Origin: Nitrospirota bacterium
Lineage (GTDB): Bacteria > Nitrospirota > Thermodesulfovibrionia > Thermodesulfovibrionales > UBA9159
Assembly: GCA_021790195.1 (NCBI GenBank)
Contig: JAJYIF010000001.1
Location: 186,001 to 250,000 of the forward strand
Reading direction: 5' to 3'
DNA length: 64,000 nucleotides
Part shown: piece by piece, positions 35,993 to 55,893 of the stretch
Layout: every line of letters begins with the position of its first letter
How positions within the stretch are numbered: the stretch's first letter is position 1
Program-made: the position numbers and the translations under genes
The notes under the pieces: generated by a model
The model's input: the letters and a program-made list of their open reading frames with translations, nothing else
Database searches by the model: none
Told to the model about the DNA's origin: nothing

Positions 35993-36016
35993 AGAGCCCG
36001 GCGAATGCCGGGCTCT
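35993..36016. terminator. Terminator after 35987
   Basis: A 10-bp perfect stem, AGAGCCCGGC and GCCGGGCTCT, with a four-base loop, immediately after the stop of the unknown protein gene. The downstream sequence is only weakly T-rich. Confidence 0.75.
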
Positions 36017-36057: not shown

Positions 36058-36291
36058 TTAGCAAGGCTGGCATACCCAGCCAGTACCTGCCACATATCTC
36101 CAGCAACAAGGATTGGTGTACAATAGGCGACTGGTGCGCTTTCCGCCGTGGAATTTCTTATTCTCCGCTATCTCATTCGGACCGTAAGGTATCTCCATAT
36201 CATTAGGAACGCCGGTCACAGGATCCACATTCTTCGCGCCTATAATCACTCCGTCATCGTTCACATATACTAAAAGCCTTGCTCCCTTCAT
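36058..36291 (-). CDS. Small protein with Cys-rich C-terminal tail
   Basis: 77 residues. It starts MKGARLLVYVNDDGVIIGAK, then NVDPVTGVPNDMEIPYGPNE and ends LLYTNPCCWRYVAGTG-WVCQPC, four cysteines and two Trp in the last 16 residues. No signal peptide. AAGGAGG lies right before the ATG at 36291, the best ribosome binding site nearby; an earlier start at 36336 has none. It is the third gene of the CHASE2-cyclase/FecR-barrel run. The shape (conserved-looking front, short Cys-rich end) resembles a peptide precursor, but no modifying enzyme is adjacent; a small metal-binding protein is as likely. Confidence 0.6.
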   Translation of the reverse strand: MKGARLLVYVNDDGVIIGAKNVDPVTGVPNDMEIPYGPNEIAENKKFHGGKRTSRLLYTNPCCWRYVAGTGWVCQPC

Positions 36292-36395
36292 ACCGCACCT
36301 CCTTCTAATTATTTGTTTCAATACCATCTCACTCACTAATTCCTATCTATTAGTCACCTCCATTCCTACATCTTTCGCAGTATTGTTTAGCCCCT

Positions 36396-39300
36396 CTAAA
36401 AAGCCAGTGTCAGTCTTGCCAGAATCAACCGCTTTGGTTGAATCCTTGGATCATATGGGTCTGTGTCCTGGAAATTGAATGTCTTGTTAAACAGGTTCTT
36501 TGCCATAATTGAGAAGATGCCCAATCTCTTTGGAAGACGGTAACCCACAGAAGCATCAAAGACCCAGAAATGATCAACCTTGGAGACGATATTATAATTC
36601 CAGGGCTCCGGTCCCAGCGCCTGAAGGAACTTGCCGTCCTGCGAGATATATGTGGGATTGAACTGAGCGAATAAACCGGAAGGATGAAAAAACACCACCC
36701 CAAAAAGAACCCTGTGAGTATTCAGCCGAGTTATATTATCACCGGCAAAATCCTCCGGCCTCTTGAACCCTTCATATTGGTATTCCGTTCTCAGGGCTAA
36801 CCAGGGATGCGGGGTCCAGTTCAAATATGCCCGCCCCAATCTTTCTTCCCATCGTCTTTCGATAAGACTCGTTGCGCCCGTTTCGAAATCAGGCAGCAGA
36901 CCGAATACGTCCAAGTCCCTTTTCGAAATCTCTGCACCTCCGTATAACTGAGAAGAAAACTTCTGGTCAATTCCTATCCCATATCTCCATGTCTTCGTCC
37001 CTTCGGCGTCATCGAAAAACTGATTGAATCCTGCCACTTGTGTCGGCTCAATCGTCTGGTCCGTTACAAGGCCGCGAGACACTGCCCTGAAGGCGGCTGC
37101 CCTCAGAGTGGTGCCGAAAAAGGGACTCCAGGTGACGCCGAATTTCGGATTGAACACGTTCCGCTCTATGGCCTGGTCGCCTATGGCCGACTTCAAGAAA
37201 TCCCCACTTCCCCCGATTGTCCATGTAACGTTCTGGGGATAATTGATAAGAGCATACAAATAAATATTTGTATGCCTTGGATGTGTCGTCGCGGTTTCCC
37301 CAAATAACGAAGTATTGAGCCGGTCCCGGAAATATCCTGCGCCGCTGATTAGTCTCGCGATCTCCATGTCAAAGAGATGTTGAATCTCGCCCGTGAAACC
37401 GTCTCTCTCAGTGTCCAGATCAAGTCCGGGACCAAAGTAGTTGCCGTTAACAAAGTCGGCATTTCGATAGATTGCGGACACTATGAGGTCCGAATCAGGC
37501 GCAAAGGAATGGTGCAGGCCGAGGCGTATCGACCTGTTATGTTCCTTATCGCGTTCATCCTGACTAAAGTCATTCGGATCAAACAGAAGTCTCAAATCTC
37601 CTGCTTCAGAATCCTTGTATCGAAACTCCGTTTGAATGCTTGTCTTTTCAGAAAGACTATATTGCGCAAAAACATCATAGATGTTTTGTTTCTGATCATC
37701 GTTCGGCCTGAACCCGTCCGTCTTGTAATGAAATTGTCCCGCGCTCATAGAGAAGTTGTTATATACCCCTGAGGCAACAGCCTCATCGCCCCAAGTGCTT
37801 TCGCCGCCGACAACGCCGCTTGCCTGGAGGGCAAGCCTGTTTCTGTTGAAGAGCGGATTGAATTCGTTGAATGAAGGGTCGGAAGGTCCCGTGCCTTCCA
37901 GGATGAAGAGCTGGCTCTCGGCGGCCTCGGGCCGGACAGGAGTGATGTTGATAGGCTGAAGGAGCTGCGATTGTAACAGCTCGCTGACCCTTGCTATCTC
38001 GTGGCGAGGAAGAGCCGAGTAGGAATCCGAAAGGAACCTGTGGGCCGAATAATTTGCCGGGTCGGTATTTACCGATTTTGCCGCCTCTTCGAGTGCGAGC
38101 TGCTGAAAGCCGAGATCGCTGTAGATCCCGGAAAGGCTCGCGCTCCGCGCCGCAAGATCGGAATCAAGGAGCAACTTTGACCGGTAGACCGCGCGGTTGT
38201 CGTTTAACTCCATCGATTTCTGAAGGTCGTGCAGTGCCTCAACAGGCCTGTTTTCGCTCTGCTTCTTTATAGCGTCATAGAAATATGGCGTAGGGTCGTT
38301 GGGATCGAATTCCTCTGCCTTTGCGAACTGCTCGGTCGCCTTCTCATCGCGCTTTTCGTCGTAATATGCCTTGCCGAGATAGCTCCGGACAATCGAATTC
38401 TGTGGGTCAAGTGTCTCTGCTATCTCTATCTCGGCCCTCCCTTCTGCAAGGTGCCCTTCCCTTATCTTTGCCAAACCCAGACCGAGCCGCGGCAAAGGGT
38501 CCGCCTGATCGAGTGCAATCGCCTTTTCAAAGTTCTCTTTGGCAAGCTTTGTCGCTATCTCTGTCAAATGGGCAAAGCCGAGGACCGTCTGCGTGCGAGA
38601 AAGAGCGGGATTCAGAGACACTGCCTTTTCCGCGGCCTCAAGCGCCTTGGCGTGTTCTCCGAAGGAAAGCTGAAGCTCGGACAATCTGGCCCAAGCAAGT
38701 GCATTCTTAGGCTCCAGTCTCACAGCATCCTGAAGGCTTCCGAGCGCGCCTTTCAGGTCAAAACGCGCTTGTAAGGCATAAGACAGGGCTATTCGCGCAG
38801 AGGCTGACTTAGAATCTGAATCGACTGCCTTCTTCGCAAGATCGAAGGCCCTGTCTTTGTTGTTTTGAGCAATGGCGATCACCGATTGAACAGCGAGGGC
38901 ATCGCTGTTTCCCGGAGACTTCTTCAGGCTTTTCTTGATCTCCCTGTTTGCCTCATCGACCCTTCCGACCGAGAGAAGATATGCGACCTTCTCCCGCCAG
39001 CCGGCCGCTGAAGAAAGCTTTGCCGGCATTGTGGGGAAAACCGGAGGATAGTAAAGCGTCCACTGCACCGCATCCCGTGGATGGGCCACAACCCGGATCT
39101 GGGGCGCCTTCCCCTTTTCGGCAATAGCGGATTGCCCGGAGGCGACCATTATAGTCCCTGCGTCATTTGACGCACTTACTGCGCCTTCGTATATCGAGAG
39201 GAAGGTCTTGTCCGTATCCACCTTGACGAGGAATTCAGTGCCCTCGACCGTTGCATTCACAAAAGGGGTAACAACTGTCAGGCTACGCTTAAAGCGGCTG

Positions 39301-39653
39301 AAGAAATGGGCGATGCCGTTAACGAGGTCAATGAGAAAGGTCTTTCCTGTCTCGGCGCCGGAGATAACCACAGCGGTCTTTTCGTCAAGGCGGAGTATTG
39401 CATCATTCGCCAGAAGGATGTCCGCGCGGCTTCTTTCGCCTACGCGGATAGAATCTCCGGCGCAGTAAGCGTCATTGAAACGGACGCGCTGCCATTCCCT
39501 TTCGCCGCGTCTTTTTGCCTCCACGCTGCCCTGCACAGAGACCGCCTTTGCGGCCCATTGACTGCATGTCTGCGCAGCTGCCGGAGAAGGTGAGAAAAAA
39601 CCTGCAACAATTACAGCAACCACCACCGCCAAAACCGACCTGATCCGCTCCAT
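36396..39653 (-). CDS. FecR-TPR-TonB-type barrel chimeric outer-membrane protein
   Basis: 1085 residues. Signal peptide (VLAVVVAVIVAGFFSPSPAAA); FecR-like domain at about 30-230 (VRVGERSRADILLANDAILR-type core and VVTPFVNATVEGTEFLV); a run of TPR units at about 240-570 (SDALAVQSVIAIAQNNKD, LEPKNALAWARLSELQL); then a beta-barrel of about 450 residues with alternating aromatic strands, SIMAKNLFNKTFNFQDTDPY near the end and a terminal Phe (ILARLTLAF), as in TonB-dependent receptors. There is no plug domain and no TonB box that I can see. The start at 39653 follows AAGGGGTG. It lies 138 bp after the CHASE2-cyclase stop, suggesting co-transcription. Confidence 0.83.
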   Translation of the reverse strand: MERIRSVLAVVVAVIVAGFFSPSPAAAQTCSQWAAKAVSVQGSVEAKRRGEREWQRVRFNDAYCAGDSIRVGERSRADILLANDAILRLDEKTAVVISGAETGKTFLIDLVNGIAHFFSRFKRSLTVVTPFVNATVEGTEFLVKVDTDKTFLSIYEGAVSASNDAGTIMVASGQSAIAEKGKAPQIRVVAHPRDAVQWTLYYPPVFPTMPAKLSSAAGWREKVAYLLSVGRVDEANREIKKSLKKSPGNSDALAVQSVIAIAQNNKDRAFDLAKKAVDSDSKSASARIALSYALQARFDLKGALGSLQDAVRLEPKNALAWARLSELQLSFGEHAKALEAAEKAVSLNPALSRTQTVLGFAHLTEIATKLAKENFEKAIALDQADPLPRLGLGLAKIREGHLAEGRAEIEIAETLDPQNSIVRSYLGKAYYDEKRDEKATEQFAKAEEFDPNDPTPYFYDAIKKQSENRPVEALHDLQKSMELNDNRAVYRSKLLLDSDLAARSASLSGIYSDLGFQQLALEEAAKSVNTDPANYSAHRFLSDSYSALPRHEIARVSELLQSQLLQPINITPVRPEAAESQLFILEGTGPSDPSFNEFNPLFNRNRLALQASGVVGGESTWGDEAVASGVYNNFSMSAGQFHYKTDGFRPNDDQKQNIYDVFAQYSLSEKTSIQTEFRYKDSEAGDLRLLFDPNDFSQDERDKEHNRSIRLGLHHSFAPDSDLIVSAIYRNADFVNGNYFGPGLDLDTERDGFTGEIQHLFDMEIARLISGAGYFRDRLNTSLFGETATTHPRHTNIYLYALINYPQNVTWTIGGSGDFLKSAIGDQAIERNVFNPKFGVTWSPFFGTTLRAAAFRAVSRGLVTDQTIEPTQVAGFNQFFDDAEGTKTWRYGIGIDQKFSSQLYGGAEISKRDLDVFGLLPDFETGATSLIERRWEERLGRAYLNWTPHPWLALRTEYQYEGFKRPEDFAGDNITRLNTHRVLFGVVFFHPSGLFAQFNPTYISQDGKFLQALGPEPWNYNIVSKVDHFWVFDASVGYRLPKRLGIFSIMAKNLFNKTFNFQDTDPYDPRIQPKRLILARLTLAF

Positions 39654-39790
39654 CTTCACACCCCTTTTGTAGTTTTTTATAAGTTTAAATATCCGCCAAA
39701 TTGTATGGAATTGCACGAAACATGCCATTTTCGTTCTCTGATCTTCTATATTTCCTCTGTGTTCTGCGATCTCTGTGGCGAAAGACTCTC

Positions 39791-42109
39791 TCATTTCTTG
39801 TCCATGTGTACCACGCCGTTCCAAGCCTCCCCCGGCGGATTATTCTTGTAATGGAGACAGAGCGTGATATAGAAATGCGACGGGCCGTCACCTTCCGAAA
39901 TCCGCATGACCTCGTTGAATAGTTCAATGGCCTTGTCCCATTCCTGCCTTCTGAAGACATCGAGGGCGCCGGAAAAGACCGCGCATATCTCCCTCTGTTC
40001 CTCCGAAATATCCTCCGAGCGCGACAGCAGCTCGCGGACCACAAGCGGTCTTGACTTGCCGGCCAGAAGGAACTTCCCGATCTCTCTTGTCACGAGACCG
40101 TCGAGCTGATTGGCCGCCTCTTGGGACACGAGCACCCGAGTGCCGAGATATTTATTTAGCCCCTCTATCCTCGTTGCGGTGTTGACAATGTCCCCTATAG
40201 GGCGATACTCGTAGTGGTCAATCGCCCCGAGGTTTCCGAGGACTATATGGCCCGAATGCAGTCCGATCCGGGTAGGGAGCTGAGAGTTCTCATTGGATTG
40301 ATTGAACCTGCTTATAGAGGCCGCAATGTCGAGGGCCGCGAGACACGCTTTATTCCGCAGGGAAGGGTCAGGGTCTGTAGATACCCATATCGCCAGCATG
40401 GAGTCCCCGATAACGTTCGAAACCACCCCCTCATGTCTCTTCACCGGATCAAATACCGCCGCGTAATACTTGTTCATGAAACTGCTCAGTTTGTCTGGCG
40501 CCATGCTTTCGCAGAGGGCAGTGTATTGCTCCGCGTCCGTGGAGAGGCAGGTCCCATAGACAAGCTGCTTGCTCTCCCTGAGGTCCGTCATGTTCTTTTC
40601 AAGGCTGCCGATCACCTCGCCCGGCAGATAATAGCCGAGGGCCTTTCTCACGTTCCGGCGCTCCCTATTTGAGTCGAAAGACTTCCACAGAAGCGCTGTG
40701 TTGAAGGCAAAGAGGGTCTGGAAGGACAGGGGGAGGACAACAGGAAACCAGATTCCCGCCCTTGAAAATACATACAGGGCGCCTGAAAGATAAAGGATGC
40801 TCAGGCCGATGATGCTGAGCGCTGCAATACCGTTCGAGTAGAAACGGCAGATGACACCTATCAACGCGCCCCACAGGAAGACAACCGCGACATGAGCCGG
40901 AAGGCTTATGGGTCGAATCGGCATGTCTTCGAGCAGATTGGCAAATGCGGTAGCCGCGATCTCCACGCCGGAGATGTCGAGGCCGTCCGCCTGAGTGAAG
41001 ACTGTGTTGAAGCCGTCCTTCTGCTCCGGCTGTATAATGTCGGAGAGCCCGACAAAAACCGCCTTGCCTTTAAGGTCGGGTAGATTTCCCGCTTCACCGC
41101 CTCCCCGAAGCCGGAGGGCCTTGTAATAGGGTATTGTAGTGATCGTCCGTGGAGGACCGTAGAAGTTCAGATATCTGCTGTTCGGACCTTCGTACATATT
41201 TACAAGAGATGCAAGGAGTCTGCTTTTCTTTGGATCAGATAAAGGACCCCCTGAGCTTGCGCTACCCCCGAGCGTCTTCTCCCGCGATAACGGCTCTTTC
41301 TCGAAGACGTCCCTCACGTCGAGGATAAGTCTCCTGATGTTCCTTGTACCAACTGCTTTCTTTCTGTCAAGAAGGAATCTGTCCATGGGATAGGCGCTGA
41401 TCTTTTCGAGAGAATGCTCCAGCTCATCATATGCCTGCCCTGCGAAGATCTGAAAGGCTACGACGGGGAGAGTGGGCGTGTCTCCGGCGCCGGTCTTGAA
41501 CGTCCAGTATTGGCTTACCTTCACCGGGACCTTGGGCAAGGGGAATGGCGCTAGCGCGGCGGCCGAGCGCTCAAGGATGGGCAGCGGGGGGACCAGCTTG
41601 ACAAGGCTGATATTTCCCCTTGACGAGCCGCTCCGGTCGGACAAGAGGACCTTGTCGGTCCTTATGCGCTCACATAGCACAACGTTGCCGGCCTTGCTCA
41701 CGGCCTCCGAGAATGCGTCGTCGTCCGCCGGCGAACGGGGGTCCTCAAAGATGACGTCAAAGGCGATAACTGCGGCCCCCTGTCTTGCAAGGACCTCGAT
41801 GAGGCGGGCATACAGCGAACGGGGCCATTTCCTCGGGTCGTTGGGCAGACCCAGATTGTCGGAAGAGCTTTTGTCTATACCGATTATAACGACATCAGGA
41901 GGGGGCCGTCTTGCTCCGCGCAGGTGGAACAGGACATCAAGCCCAAGGTCCTCTTCCAGCTCAAGACCCAAAGAAAGAAGGCTCGCAATCAGCCCCACCA
42001 TGCCGGTGAGAAGGCCAAGTATTATTGCCTTGGATAATCGAGTCTCCACACCTCCCCCAGTCATCAATTTTCCCTGAACAGCGTCCGGCTTGTCAAGAAA
42101 AATGCTCAC
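39791..42109 (-). CDS. CHASE2-class III adenylate/guanylate cyclase
   Basis: 772 residues. A first helix (AIILGLLTGMVGLIASLLSL) is followed by an extracellular CHASE2 sensor (VVIIGIDKSSSDNLGLP, VIAFDVIFEDPRSPADD, LKGKAVFVGLSDIIQPEQ), then three hydrophobic helices (PAHVAVVFLWGALIGVICRF, IAALSIIGLSILYLSGALYV and the next), and a cytoplasmic cyclase domain with LSTDAEQYTALCE and VIGDSMLAIW (metal Asp pair) and GDIVNTATRIEGLNKYLG (Asn/Arg transition-state stabilisers). A TPR-like tail ends the protein. It would turn an envelope signal into cAMP or cGMP. An ATG at 42064 is an alternative start. It heads the run with the FecR-barrel and Cys peptide genes. Confidence 0.92.
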   Translation of the reverse strand: MSIFLDKPDAVQGKLMTGGGVETRLSKAIILGLLTGMVGLIASLLSLGLELEEDLGLDVLFHLRGARRPPPDVVIIGIDKSSSDNLGLPNDPRKWPRSLYARLIEVLARQGAAVIAFDVIFEDPRSPADDDAFSEAVSKAGNVVLCERIRTDKVLLSDRSGSSRGNISLVKLVPPLPILERSAAALAPFPLPKVPVKVSQYWTFKTGAGDTPTLPVVAFQIFAGQAYDELEHSLEKISAYPMDRFLLDRKKAVGTRNIRRLILDVRDVFEKEPLSREKTLGGSASSGGPLSDPKKSRLLASLVNMYEGPNSRYLNFYGPPRTITTIPYYKALRLRGGGEAGNLPDLKGKAVFVGLSDIIQPEQKDGFNTVFTQADGLDISGVEIAATAFANLLEDMPIRPISLPAHVAVVFLWGALIGVICRFYSNGIAALSIIGLSILYLSGALYVFSRAGIWFPVVLPLSFQTLFAFNTALLWKSFDSNRERRNVRKALGYYLPGEVIGSLEKNMTDLRESKQLVYGTCLSTDAEQYTALCESMAPDKLSSFMNKYYAAVFDPVKRHEGVVSNVIGDSMLAIWVSTDPDPSLRNKACLAALDIAASISRFNQSNENSQLPTRIGLHSGHIVLGNLGAIDHYEYRPIGDIVNTATRIEGLNKYLGTRVLVSQEAANQLDGLVTREIGKFLLAGKSRPLVVRELLSRSEDISEEQREICAVFSGALDVFRRQEWDKAIELFNEVMRISEGDGPSHFYITLCLHYKNNPPGEAWNGVVHMDKK

Positions 42110-42394: not shown

Positions 42395-42754
42395 TCATCC
42401 ATTGCGGGAAAGCGTCTTATCGTAAAATCGGGATTCGCCGGCGCGTTGCCCTTCGGCCTCTCTCAATTTCTCCAGGATCACAGCGGACAACTGAAAGTCC
42501 GGGAATTCTTCTCTCCGCACTGTCTTATAGAAATCACAGGCACTGCAGCTCTTAATGTCTTTTGCAAAGATACACTTCATCTCTCCCCTGCAGAAGGTTC
42601 CTGCAATGACCCAGCAGGCCCTGCCGGCATTCTTGCCCTCATGGATTCCGTCAAGCCTTTTTTCGACGGAAGAAGGACAAACGCCGAGGTCGCTGACTCT
42701 ATTGCCTCCCCGCTGTCTTCCGCATTTCTTGAATTCCCAGCAATTCTCTTTCAC
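42395..42754 (-). CDS. Two-CW domain Cys-rich protein
   Basis: About 119 residues with the pattern of two-CW domain proteins: ENCWEFKKCGRQRGG, DLGVCPSSVEKRLDG, NAGRACWVIAGTFC, GEMKCIFAKDIKSCSACDFY, nine cysteines in about 75 residues. It probably binds zinc or an iron-sulfur cluster. The GTG at 42754 matches where the family starts; AAGAGG is four bases before it. An ATG at 42826 would add 24 residues with no family match. It lies in the signalling locus next to the small zinc-type gene and downstream of the response regulator. Target or partner unknown. Confidence 0.7.
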   Translation of the reverse strand: MKENCWEFKKCGRQRGGNRVSDLGVCPSSVEKRLDGIHEGKNAGRACWVIAGTFCRGEMKCIFAKDIKSCSACDFYKTVRREEFPDFQLSAVILEKLREAEGQRAGESRFYDKTLSRNG

Positions 42755-43083
42755 AATGCCTCTTCTCAGACCCTCTACGTCATCACTCTTCCCCTCCCTA
42801 ATAAGGTTAACTCCCGCGTCAGACAATGTCTATCACCGTATATGGGTATTTTTGGGGGACAAGGACGGAAGGCATATGACCCGGGAAAGAGCAGTCATCC
42901 ACAGAGATCACAGAGACAAATCCACCACCTTAAGACCAATGGCCTTTTGTCAACTTGGTGGACTTTCTTGGAAAGAGAAGCATTTGAATTTTCTTGCGCT
43001 CTTTGCGCCTGCCTGCTGGCAGGCAGGGCTGTGCATGACCAATTGCCGTTTTTCAGAATAAAGAGAGACCGTTACGATAGGCC
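42755..43083. other. Intergenic region, no gene seen
   Basis: About 329 bp between the two-CW gene and the response regulator. It contains the imperfect palindrome at 43007-43027 and otherwise nothing I can identify. Confidence 0.5.
43007..43027. repeat. Palindromic repeat, second copy
   Basis: GCCTGCCTGC and its partner GGCAGGCAGG, with one differing base at the centre compared with the perfect copy at 9793-9814. Confidence 0.7.
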
Positions 43084-43707
43084 TTAAATAATCCCCTTCT
43101 TCCGGGCCTTGATGACCGCTTCCCGTCTGTCCTTTGCATGAAGTTTGTCGTAGATCCTCTTGATGTGAGTATGGACGGTGTGCGCGCTTATGTTGAACTT
43201 CTTAGCGATCTCTTTATACGTAAGACCTTCCTCAATGCTCCTGACCACCTCGGTTTCCCTATGGCTGAGGAGATATTGTTCGGTCACGCCCTCCTCCTGG
43301 AACTCCATTATCACCTTTCTCGCTATCTTCGGGCTCATTGGAGCTCCGCCCCGGGAAAGGTCATTGAGGGCCTCCACGATCTCTCTCGGACTGCTTCCCT
43401 TGAGTATATAGCCGGATGCGCCGGCCTTGATGGCAGAAAAGACATTTCCCTTGTCTTCGTATATGGTGTGAGCCATAATGTCCACTCCCGGCATGTCTCT
43501 CTTCACCTTCTTTATTAGTTCAATTCCAGGCATCCCGGGAAGACCGAGATCCACGAGCACCACATCGGGCCGCGATTCCTTCAGTCCGCCCAGGGCTTCC
43601 TCCGCCGACCCAAAGGCGCCGGTAATCAAGATTCCCGGCTCTCCGCTAAGAAGCAGCCTGAGGTTTTCAAGAAGAAGAAGATTGTCCTCAACTATGACAA
43701 CGTTCAT
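43084..43707 (-). CDS. NarL/LuxR-type response regulator
   Basis: 207 residues. Receiver domain: MNVVIVEDNLLLLENLRLL, phospho-acceptor Asp in VVLVDLGLPGMPGI, Lys in GYILKGSSPREI; then a LuxR-type helix-turn-helix with LSHRETEVVRSIEEGLTYKE and FNISAHTVHTHIKRIYDKLH. It is the partner of the sensor kinase 27 bp upstream. Targets are unknown. Confidence 0.95.
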   Translation of the reverse strand: MNVVIVEDNLLLLENLRLLLSGEPGILITGAFGSAEEALGGLKESRPDVVLVDLGLPGMPGIELIKKVKRDMPGVDIMAHTIYEDKGNVFSAIKAGASGYILKGSSPREIVEALNDLSRGGAPMSPKIARKVIMEFQEEGVTEQYLLSHRETEVVRSIEEGLTYKEIAKKFNISAHTVHTHIKRIYDKLHAKDRREAVIKARKKGII

Positions 43708-43734
43708 AACCGCTTAATTATCCTTATTCGCACG

Positions 43735-44967
43735 TCAGAATTCAATATCGACCCCCGGATATTTCAGAGGAAAGGGGACATCGAGCAATACGCATGCGCC
43801 CTTTCCCGATGCAACTTCAAGCCTCCCCCCTATCTCCTCGGCCCTCGTCTTCATGTTCAGCAGGCCCCTTCCCTTGCCTTTCGCCCCGGCCAGACCTCTG
43901 CCGTCATCCCTTACCGCGAGACGAAGCCCCGAGGGACCGACTTCCATCGTCACATGCACCGATCCGGCCCCCGAATGTTTTATGACATTTGTCATCGCTT
44001 CTTTGTATATCCTGAAGACGTTTATGGAGAGGAGACCGCGCGGATATTCCTTCTGATCGCAGTCTGCCGCGTCCATCGCAAAGGAAATCCCGAGAGGCTC
44101 AACCATACTGCTGCCTATCCTCCTTAGTTCGGCCGTCATGGCACGCCAGTTGTCCTCCTTGATATCAAGGCTGCACATGAAGCTCTTTATTTCGGAGAGT
44201 CCTTCCCGTGACAGCTCTGCTATAGTAGCAAGCGTCTTCCTGACCTCGCCTAAAGAGGACTTCTTCCTGCCGATTTCCGCAAGAAGACTGATGTTCGTGG
44301 TTATGCCGCCTATGCCGTCATGAAGGTCCCTGAGCATCTTTTCTTTTTCCGAGGCGTGCCGCTTTTCTTCCGCCAATCTCGACTTGAGTTGTCTTATGTT
44401 TTCTTCATAAAGGATTGCGTTCTCCATCGCAAGGGCCACATGATCGGCAAAGGCGGCGAGTATCTCAAGGTCGTCGGAATCGAAGCTGCCCTTTCTCTTG
44501 TTTACCGCTTCCAGGATCCCGAGCGCCTTTTCCTTTGTCCTCACAGGCACGCAGATCATGTTCTTCGTCGTAAACTCGCTGATCATGTCCGCATTCCTAA
44601 AGAAGCGCGAATCGGCGCCCACGTCATGGACAATCTGCGGAGAGCCGTGCTCTGCGACCCAGCCTGCTATCCCCTCGCCCTTCTTGAGTCTGACCTCCGT
44701 CAGCCTCTCCCCTTTTCTCAGCGCGTATTCAAAATACAGCTCGCCTGTCTTCTGGTCGATAAGAAGCAGACTGCCGGTCTCGGCATCGAGAAGCTCTGCG
44801 GCCGCCCGTATCGCTCTCTTCTTTATCTCTTTCAGGTCCAGTGTAGAGTTGACAAGGGCGGCCATTTCTATCAGGGCCCTGAGTTGCCTAAGCCTCCTGT
44901 TAGCCCGCCTCTCGCCCCGCGTCGATTCCAGCGATTTACTCCCGGTCTTTCCCCTTGTCGTTGTCAC
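43735..44967 (-). CDS. GAF-domain sensor histidine kinase (NarX/DesK type)
   Basis: 410 residues, no membrane segment, so it senses a cytoplasmic signal. GAF domain at about 50-190 (GSLLLIDQKTGELYFEYALR, GEGIAGWVAEHGSPQIVHD, NMICVPVRTKEKALGILEA), a coiled coil, then a HisKA_3 dimerisation region with MLRDLHDGIGGITTNISLL (phospho-His) and an HATPase domain with IYKEAMTNVIKHSGA, VRDDGRGL and GKGRGLLNMKTRAEEIGG. The GTG/ATG start at 44967 gives a basic, disordered N-terminus. It is in one unit with the response regulator downstream. Confidence 0.94.
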   Translation of the reverse strand: MTTTRGKTGSKSLESTRGERRANRRLRQLRALIEMAALVNSTLDLKEIKKRAIRAAAELLDAETGSLLLIDQKTGELYFEYALRKGERLTEVRLKKGEGIAGWVAEHGSPQIVHDVGADSRFFRNADMISEFTTKNMICVPVRTKEKALGILEAVNKRKGSFDSDDLEILAAFADHVALAMENAILYEENIRQLKSRLAEEKRHASEKEKMLRDLHDGIGGITTNISLLAEIGRKKSSLGEVRKTLATIAELSREGLSEIKSFMCSLDIKEDNWRAMTAELRRIGSSMVEPLGISFAMDAADCDQKEYPRGLLSINVFRIYKEAMTNVIKHSGAGSVHVTMEVGPSGLRLAVRDDGRGLAGAKGKGRGLLNMKTRAEEIGGRLEVASGKGACVLLDVPFPLKYPGVDIEF

Positions 44968-53894: not shown

Positions 53895-55893
53895 GATACA
53901 TCTGGACATAGGGAACCTTCTTCAATTCCCATTTGTTGTTCGCTGCGTCATACTTAGAATTGGTGAAGCACTTCCAGTTTGTGTCGTCGATCTTGTTATG
54001 GTCGCCCCTGTAGTAGTAGCCGGGGTACCTGGACTCCTCCCTGAAGAGGATGTGCCTTGCATGTGCCTCGACCGACAGGATTCTGTGATAGTTCTCATTG
54101 CACCTGAGAAGCTCGTGGAGGTCTTTCGCCGCCATCTTGCCGGCATCCTCCTTGAGCATCTCGAGCTTCCTGAGACCTTCCTCCAGCATAGTCTTTGAGG
54201 TCATATACCATGTGGCTACGCCGCCGAAGTATTCGTCGGCGATCTTCTGGAGCCTCAGCTGAAGGGCCTTCGGGCCGATGTAATTAGGGTTGATCGTCGG
54301 ATCAGTCGAGTATGTCTTGTACTTCTCATACATCTCAAACGGCAGGTACATCTCGGCCGTGACTTCATCCGCGCTCTTCTTCGGGTTCGGCTTGTAATCC
54401 GCATGGTCGAGGATGTAAGCAAGCGCAGCCTTCGCGGCAATTCTACCCTCCGCATGGGAACCGGAGGAGAATTTGTGTCCGGAGGCGCCGACAACGTCGC
54501 CAGCCATAAAGAGACCGGGCACCGTCGACATCCTGTTATATCCCCAACTGTAGTGCTCCGGCGTTCCCGGAAGGTCGCCGGGGCCGCTCACCCAGAAGCC
54601 CGCGCAGCCTGCGTGAGAACCTAAGAGATACGGCTCGGTCGGCATGATCTCGGAAACGCTCTTGTCGGGCTCGATGTTGCTGGCCGCCCAGAGTGAAGCC
54701 TGTCCGATAGCCATGTCGAGGAAGTCTTCCCAGGCCTCTGCCTCGAGGTGCTTCATCTTCTTGGCGCCTTCTTTGTCGCCAAGCTTCTCTTTAAACGCCT
54801 TACCTAACGCAGCCATAGCATCAGGGGTCTGCATAAGGATCGGGCCCCTGCCGTCTCTCATCGCCCTCATCATGAGGTGGTTTCTGATAGCGGTGCCGAG
54901 ACCTTTTGCATAGTCGCCATATCTGGCAACTGCATCGTCAAAGTACTCCTTGTCCGCGCAGTAATCATTCCCGTGACTGTCGGTCGCCTTTGCCTTGAAG
55001 AAGAGGAACCATGCTCCGACAGGACCATATCCGTCCTTAAACCTGGCAGGCACGAACCTGTTCTCCATCAGGGTCATCTCGGCTCCGGCGAGCATTCCGA
55101 AGGCATAACCCGAACCCGCACTGAACACAGGGTACCAGGTCCTTCCCATACCCTCGCCGACCGACCTCGGCCTGAAGCAGTTAACCGCTCCGGCGCAGGC
55201 ATTGATAATTGCCCTTGCCTTAAAGATATAGGTCTTGTTCTCTCTGACACTGAAGCCTGCCGCGCCTGCGACGTGCTTTCCGTCCGCATCCATGAGAGGG
55301 CTGTGGATCAGGACCCTTTCGAAATGGTTCTGCGCCATTCCGGTCTTTTCCCTGTTGGTCTGGAGGGCCTTCTTCGCGGCCTCCGCAACGACGACCTTGT
55401 ATGATTCGCCGTTGATCATGATCTGCCACTTGCCGGACCTTACCGGAACACCGCCGTCCTTAAGGCTGGGTTTTCCCGCGTCCCTTGCCTGGAAACCGTC
55501 GAGGGAGAAGCCGTCGTCCCCCTTCTTCCAGATCGGGAGGCCCCATTCCTCAAACAGCTGGACGGAACTGTCGACATGCCTGCCGAGGTCGAATACTAGG
55601 TCTTCCCTTATGATGCCCATAAGGTCGTTCCTGACGTACTTGACGTAGTCAGCGCATTTATTCTCGCCGACATATGTATTGATTGCGGAGAGGCCCATCG
55701 CGACCGCGCCGCTTCTGTCTGTTGCAGCCTTGTCTACGAGGACAACCTTCAGTCCCTTTTCGTTTGCCCAGCGGCACGCCTCAAAAGCTGCGCCGCAACC
55801 CGCCATACCGCCGCCCATGATAAGGAGATCGGTTTCGACTTCGGTTACTTCGGGCTTCTTACAAAATGAAAATGTACAAGTCTCTTTTTCCAT
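53890..55893 (-). CDS. aprA: Adenylylsulfate reductase alpha subunit
   Basis: Reduces APS to sulfite and AMP in the cytoplasm using FAD. 667 residues, the usual length. Seen: ETDLLIMGGGMAGCGAAFEA with FAD glycines, DRSGAVAMGLSAINTYVG, VFDLGRHVDSSVQLFEEWGL, CAGAVNCFRPRSVGEGMGRT and AGDVVGASGHKFSSGSHAEG near the C-terminal third. GGAGGTGGATATAA precedes the ATG. It is 13 bp downstream of aprB. The direction (reduction or oxidation) cannot be read from the sequence, but QmoABC points to reduction. Confidence 0.96.
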   Translation of the reverse strand: MEKETCTFSFCKKPEVTEVETDLLIMGGGMAGCGAAFEACRWANEKGLKVVLVDKAATDRSGAVAMGLSAINTYVGENKCADYVKYVRNDLMGIIREDLVFDLGRHVDSSVQLFEEWGLPIWKKGDDGFSLDGFQARDAGKPSLKDGGVPVRSGKWQIMINGESYKVVVAEAAKKALQTNREKTGMAQNHFERVLIHSPLMDADGKHVAGAAGFSVRENKTYIFKARAIINACAGAVNCFRPRSVGEGMGRTWYPVFSAGSGYAFGMLAGAEMTLMENRFVPARFKDGYGPVGAWFLFFKAKATDSHGNDYCADKEYFDDAVARYGDYAKGLGTAIRNHLMMRAMRDGRGPILMQTPDAMAALGKAFKEKLGDKEGAKKMKHLEAEAWEDFLDMAIGQASLWAASNIEPDKSVSEIMPTEPYLLGSHAGCAGFWVSGPGDLPGTPEHYSWGYNRMSTVPGLFMAGDVVGASGHKFSSGSHAEGRIAAKAALAYILDHADYKPNPKKSADEVTAEMYLPFEMYEKYKTYSTDPTINPNYIGPKALQLRLQKIADEYFGGVATWYMTSKTMLEEGLRKLEMLKEDAGKMAAKDLHELLRCNENYHRILSVEAHARHILFREESRYPGYYYRGDHNKIDDTNWKCFTNSKYDAANNKWELKKVPYVQMYP

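Follow-up and report, generated by a model that had tools for sequence, protein, structure and literature searches.

A FecR-TPR-barrel protein encoded with a CHASE2-cyclase and a small Cys/Trp-tailed protein in Nitrospirota: a candidate trans-envelope signalling module homologous to NsrA/CyaK

To our knowledge, there is one experimental case of an outer-membrane barrel activating an inner-membrane cyclase, NsrA/CyaK, whose ligand is a foreign protein. This system of Sinorhizobium meliloti pairs an outer-membrane receptor, NsrA, with the CHASE2 adenylate cyclase CyaK (PMC7529298, PMC13001267); the signal is a protein, and the output requires CyaK (PMC7529298). Two other described systems contain some of the same domains. 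A cluster of Campylobacterota includes a CHASE2-cyclase, a FecR-domain outer-membrane protein, a TPR protein, and a phosphodiesterase (PMC9239204), and the BiofilmReg operon of Burkholderia combines a FecR-LysM protein with a CHASE2 histidine kinase (PMC5192318).

The stretch of DNA analysed here (64,000 nucleotides, hereafter the window) belongs to a draft genome of 3.3 Mb in 54 contigs. It carries three genes lying head to tail on the minus strand, and the initial annotation had placed all three correctly: a CHASE2-cyclase (39791..42109), a FecR-TPR-β-barrel protein (36396..39653), and a 77-residue small protein (36058..36291). The small gene starts at ATG 36291, preceded by a strong Shine-Dalgarno sequence (AGGAGGTG, in the region 36292..36306), and is followed directly on its 3' side by an intrinsic terminator with a 10-bp stem (8 GC pairs) and a T-run (35993..36016, minus strand), where the operon likely ends. 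Upstream of the cyclase, we observe a two-CW domain protein (42395-42826, minus strand; NCBIfam NF045718, E=5e-31), which has a homologue on the downstream side of the small gene in the group L044-L047. A GAF-HisKA_3 histidine kinase and a LuxR-type response regulator are also encoded upstream of the trio (43084-44967, minus strand); in the nearest relative (L009, 13044-14835), their homologues are found downstream of the small gene instead. Similar 'CACAGAGATC..CACAGAGG' stretches, possibly a dispersed repeat, occur in the gap between cyclase and barrel genes (about 39785-39750) and upstream of the two-CW gene (about 42920-42890).

The barrel ORF as listed opens at TTG 39824, but ATG 39653 is the likelier start, giving a protein of 1085 residues with a hydrophobic leader (residues 1 to about 30). 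Pfam identifies a FecR domain (E=2e-12, residues ~67-159) and many TPRs. The AlphaFold2 model, built with 15 orthologues, shows a TPR superhelix (residues 219-565) and about 22 β-strands (607-1084) in a barrel region that runs from residue 607 to the C-terminus, all at moderate confidence (mean pLDDT 65, pTM 0.42). In this model, the first strand begins only about 40 residues after the TPRs, and no match to the Plug family was found in the protein with Pfam, which is why we call the barrel plug-less. The best solved matches retrieved by Foldseek are TPR superhelices and the TonB-type receptor barrels FpvA, BtuB, and FrpB, suggesting a TonB-receptor-like barrel of about 22 strands. The domain assignments of the initial annotation, including the missing plug, thus agree with both Pfam and the AlphaFold2 model.

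The relation to NsrA extends over the length of the barrel protein: the window barrel family (51-77% identity to the window protein, alignment A1) aligns with the NsrA group over 1007 columns, with an hhalign probability of 100% and E=2.4e-66. This group, found on rhizobial plasmids, encodes proteins of about 1200 residues in which FecR and TPR domains were identified with Pfam and whose genes overlap that of a CHASE2-cyclase. It includes nsrA-cyaK of S. meliloti pSymB, in which nsrA comes first and overlaps the following cyaK by 1 bp; a group member matches pSymB nsrA at 55% identity. Since the barrel-cyclase pair is homologous over its length to NsrA/CyaK (PMC7529298), the earlier statement that the system had no described function was too strong, and the FecR-TPR-barrel fusion, also present in NsrA relatives, is not unique to this locus. 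Next to nsrA-cyaK (L156:3810-4355) and next to a relative of this pair in Rhizobium (L144:6253-6792), a divergent gene encodes a DUF5706/PycTM-like protein of the Pycsar effector family, which suggests a cyclic-nucleotide effector beside the receptor.

The cyclase is a protein of 772 residues (42109..39791, from a GTG whose choice as exact start is uncertain) and matches the Pfam families CHASE2 (E=2e-29; residues 41-418, about 41989-40856) and Guanylate_cyc (E=5e-13; residues 522-686, about 40546-40052). Alignment to solved cyclases places the metal-binding residues at Asp525 and Asp569 and the catalytic pair at Asn643 and Arg647. In a residue census of 62 aligned window-type cyclases, the Asp pair and the catalytic Asn/Arg are kept in 59, the remainder being mostly gaps. 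Base choice in class III cyclases is governed by two other positions, which correspond to Asn565 and Arg636 in the window enzyme, in a register confirmed by the alignment with solved cyclases. Among the 62, the adenylate-cyclase Lys is replaced by Asp in 28 and by Asn in 20, and Arg stands at the Thr/Ser/Asp position in 42, whereas NsrA-type enzymes and others mostly have Lys and Thr/Ser. With Asp/Asn and Arg instead of Lys and Thr/Ser, the product need not be cAMP. For the cyclic nucleotide named in the initial annotation, cAMP cannot be assumed. New in these alignments is a clade of cyclases that combines intact catalytic residues with an altered base-recognition pair.

The genome carries four class III cyclase domains and 11 matches to cNMP-binding proteins. 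Another FecR-domain ORF (L012, G000:C39:14230-15624) adjoins a class III cyclase domain for which no CHASE2 was found. Two further FecR ORFs of 271 residues with identical scores lie 5.9 kb apart (L011, G000:C50:48712-48957 and 54635-54880), apparently a duplication. A Pycsar (cCMP/cUMP) defence role was considered for the trio and rejected, as the likeness to PycC is confined to the catalytic domain of the cyclase and the trio includes no PycTM or PycTIR effector.

The three genes had been proposed to belong together, and their distribution bears this out: the lack of co-occurrence in relatives that would have spoken against it is not seen. Among 200 genomes of the class, 18 contain a barrel orthologue (best E below 1e-60), with a CHASE2-cyclase directly upstream in all 18; a profile of the small-protein family finds members in 12 of these 18 genomes vs none of the 182 barrel-less ones, and in all 12 the small gene is beside the barrel gene (Fisher p=3e-15). 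A GTDB scan with the barrel alignment returned 360 relatives, the best 80 of which include Nitrospirota, Desulfobacterota, Methylococcales, other Gammaproteobacteria, Nitrosospira/Nitrosovibrio, Brocadia, and Methylomirabilota; a Nitrospirae MAG is the nearest of the named ones. Of the named loci, 57 have usable flanks: the cyclase is directly upstream of the barrel in 38 and elsewhere within the stored flanks in 12 more, often on the other strand, which indicates a functional link and not mere synteny; in the remaining seven, no CHASE2-cyclase was found within the stored flanks. This recurrence across phyla puts the trio beyond chance. The other recurring neighbours are mostly genes common to close relatives, and a class II cAMP-phosphodiesterase-like protein is encoded in or near seven loci.

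The small protein ends in TNPCCWRYVAGTGWVCQPC and includes the conserved Cys/Trp tail NPCCWRYVAGTGWVCQPC (36061..36114, minus strand). BLAST with this protein gives matches in only 2 further genomes of the 200, as if the gene were an accident, a possibility that was rejected by the profile and by reading the region 3' of every barrel. Most barrel loci indeed encode there a protein of 60-140 residues with an unrelated-looking body and a common tail, [N/S]P-x-C-x-W...G-x-W/Y...C, at the C-terminus. The regular expression for this tail was written after inspection of the data and its p-values are only descriptive; a leave-one-out profile, whose training sets exclude relatives of at least 45% identity and for which two members (L092 and L102) were added by eye, is the fairer test. 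Of the 41 representatives, 37 rank in the top 1% of 689 control C-termini, and these also outscore nearly all shuffles. Searched against 17,773 six-frame segments from about 100 loci, the family profile, for which training members score high by construction, gives no hits other than at third-gene positions, in second tandem copies, and in one copy 3.6 kb away. In the same two loci, L092 and L102, the small gene is read from the other strand towards the barrel gene and keeps its tail; the linkage to the barrel is therefore not a read-through artefact.

Beyond the nearest relative, the small proteins are only 10-38% identical to that of the window. A Pfam and NCBIfam scan of 25 members gave isolated, mutually unrelated matches in single members and no model describing the family, an absence explained by the body: its identity drops to about 20%, while that of the barrel remains above 50%. 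These comparisons show a new hypervariable family with a conserved tail. AlphaFold2 predicts an N-terminal β-hairpin (residues 5-22), an ill-defined middle, and a C-terminal β-hairpin (residues 62-76) for the window protein, and a structure search with this model (pLDDT 57) gave no significant match.

No Sec or lipoprotein signal was detected in 41 of 49 small proteins, that of the window included, using a crude hydrophobicity test. Wrong start codons were rejected as the cause, since the in-frame upstream extensions (the last 30 residues of each) show no evident signal sequence. Members of the Sec and lipoprotein type (L065, L070, L081, L111, and L142) carry the same tail, and two loci (L048 and L050) have two tandem small proteins with this tail 3' of the barrel, of which only the second has a Sec-like signal peptide. 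The genome of the window encodes a single tail-bearing protein, so the tail was rejected as a general C-terminal sorting signal. In a distant barrel clade, the small gene is replaced by genes for larger secreted proteins of 150-310 residues, some with Cys-containing tails. Such a larger secreted Cys-containing protein is the third gene product in L067, L098, L101, and L109, and in two distant members (L088 and L132) the barrel is followed by a gene for a PEP-CTERM-like protein.

We consider it fairly probable that the trio is a trans-envelope signalling module of the NsrA/CyaK type with a small protein of its own as partner or ligand. The outer-membrane barrel would bind an extracellular ligand, and in the periplasm its TPR and FecR parts would touch the CHASE2 domain of the inner-membrane cyclase. 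On this contact, the cyclase would start to make a cyclic nucleotide, which some of the 11 cNMP-binding proteins would read. The small protein would be the cognate partner of the receptor, either a ligand or a plug or co-receptor, and would act through its C-terminal Cys/Trp hairpin. The homology of barrel and cyclase to NsrA/CyaK, the conserved catalytic residues, the genomic linkage of all three genes, the 11 cNMP-binding proteins, and the phosphodiesterase-like protein in or near seven loci speak for this model, in which the contacts, the direction of the signal, the role of the small protein, and the nucleotide are inferred. Several observations count against this signalling model. The frequent lack of a signal peptide leaves the route of the small protein to the barrel unexplained; NsrA has a foreign protein as its ligand, and a small gene of this kind is absent from the NsrA-type loci examined; distant barrels are accompanied by larger secreted proteins; seven of the 57 loci are without a cyclase in their stored flanks; and the barrel model has moderate confidence. 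A further proposal, to which we give a small probability, makes the small protein a self-encoded, strain-specific signal, either a pheromone or, since a signal peptide is often lacking, a kin-lysis signal; the organism's own outer-membrane receptor would read it through the Cys/Trp hairpin, with a cyclic nucleotide other than cAMP as output and in several phyla.

The initial annotation had left the choice between sensing and export. The plug-less TPR barrel could secrete the small protein in the manner of PgaA or BcsC, with the C-terminal hairpin as the signal and the cyclase reporting on or controlling the process. TPRs combined with a barrel do recall the porins of exopolysaccharide export, the tail always stands at the C-terminus, where several sorting signals are also located, and the third gene of distant members encodes a secreted protein. 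Nevertheless, the nearest solved barrels are TonB-type receptors and not 16-strand PgaA-type porins, the loci share no conserved inner-membrane transporter, a signal peptide is lacking in most small proteins, there is only one tail-bearing protein in the genome to be exported, and the homologue NsrA is a receptor. This leaves export rather unlikely, and less likely than trans-envelope signalling.

The small protein could instead remain in the cytosol and, without involving the barrel, modulate the cyclase or bind a metal via its Cys residues. Its gene is encoded with the cyclase, and a cytosolic location would suit the members without a signal peptide, the window's among them. The same tail on exported members, including one of the two copies in each tandem pair, does not fit such a role, and in six loci with both flanks the small gene is kept by the barrel even though the cyclase is not directly upstream; we regard a cytoplasmic regulator as improbable. 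A very improbable alternative is a RiPP-like precursor or other peptide natural product, in which a Cys/Trp-containing C-terminal core would be modified and released. The gene is short with a Cys/Trp/Tyr-rich C-terminal segment, and two NCBIfam models of cyclases annotated in peptide-modification systems (TIGR04510 and TIGR03903) weakly match the barrel TPRs and the cyclase, but both matches are far below the cut-off, and the presumed core is conserved and the leader variable, the reverse of most RiPPs. As no maturase, peptidase, or other enzyme recurs in the neighbourhoods, this alternative was rejected.

The signalling model would make the trio a widespread sister system of NsrA/CyaK that brings its own candidate partner or ligand, so that recognition of the ligand and signalling from barrel to CHASE2 become open to direct tests. 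The altered base-recognition residues also pose the question which cyclic nucleotide the enzyme produces. Like NsrA-CyaK, the window has a FecR-TPR-barrel protein (~1100-1260 residues) beside a CHASE2 class III cyclase, the barrel proteins being homologous over their length. Unlike in NsrA-CyaK, where the barrel precedes the cyclase, the cyclase comes first, a third gene encodes the small protein, of whose family the profile finds no member in the NsrA-type loci examined, and the cyclase clade has Asp/Asn and mostly Arg in place of Lys and Thr/Ser with the catalytic residues kept. Because of the reversed gene order and the different base-recognition residues, the window pair is a homologous variant of NsrA/CyaK rather than a strict member. 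The Campylobacterota cluster shares the CHASE2 cyclase with a FecR-domain outer-membrane protein and a phosphodiesterase nearby, but in that description TPR and FecR belong to separate proteins and no small partner is reported (PMC9239204). In BiofilmReg, FecR and CHASE2 partners again share one operon, with a histidine kinase output and no barrel, TPR, or small protein of the window family. Finally, the predicted ~22-strand barrel and a FecR domain in a trans-envelope path recall the TonB-dependent transducers (FecA/FecR/FecI, FpvA), from which the window system differs in that no plug or signalling domain was found in it, FecR is fused to the barrel, and the output is a cyclase instead of a sigma factor.
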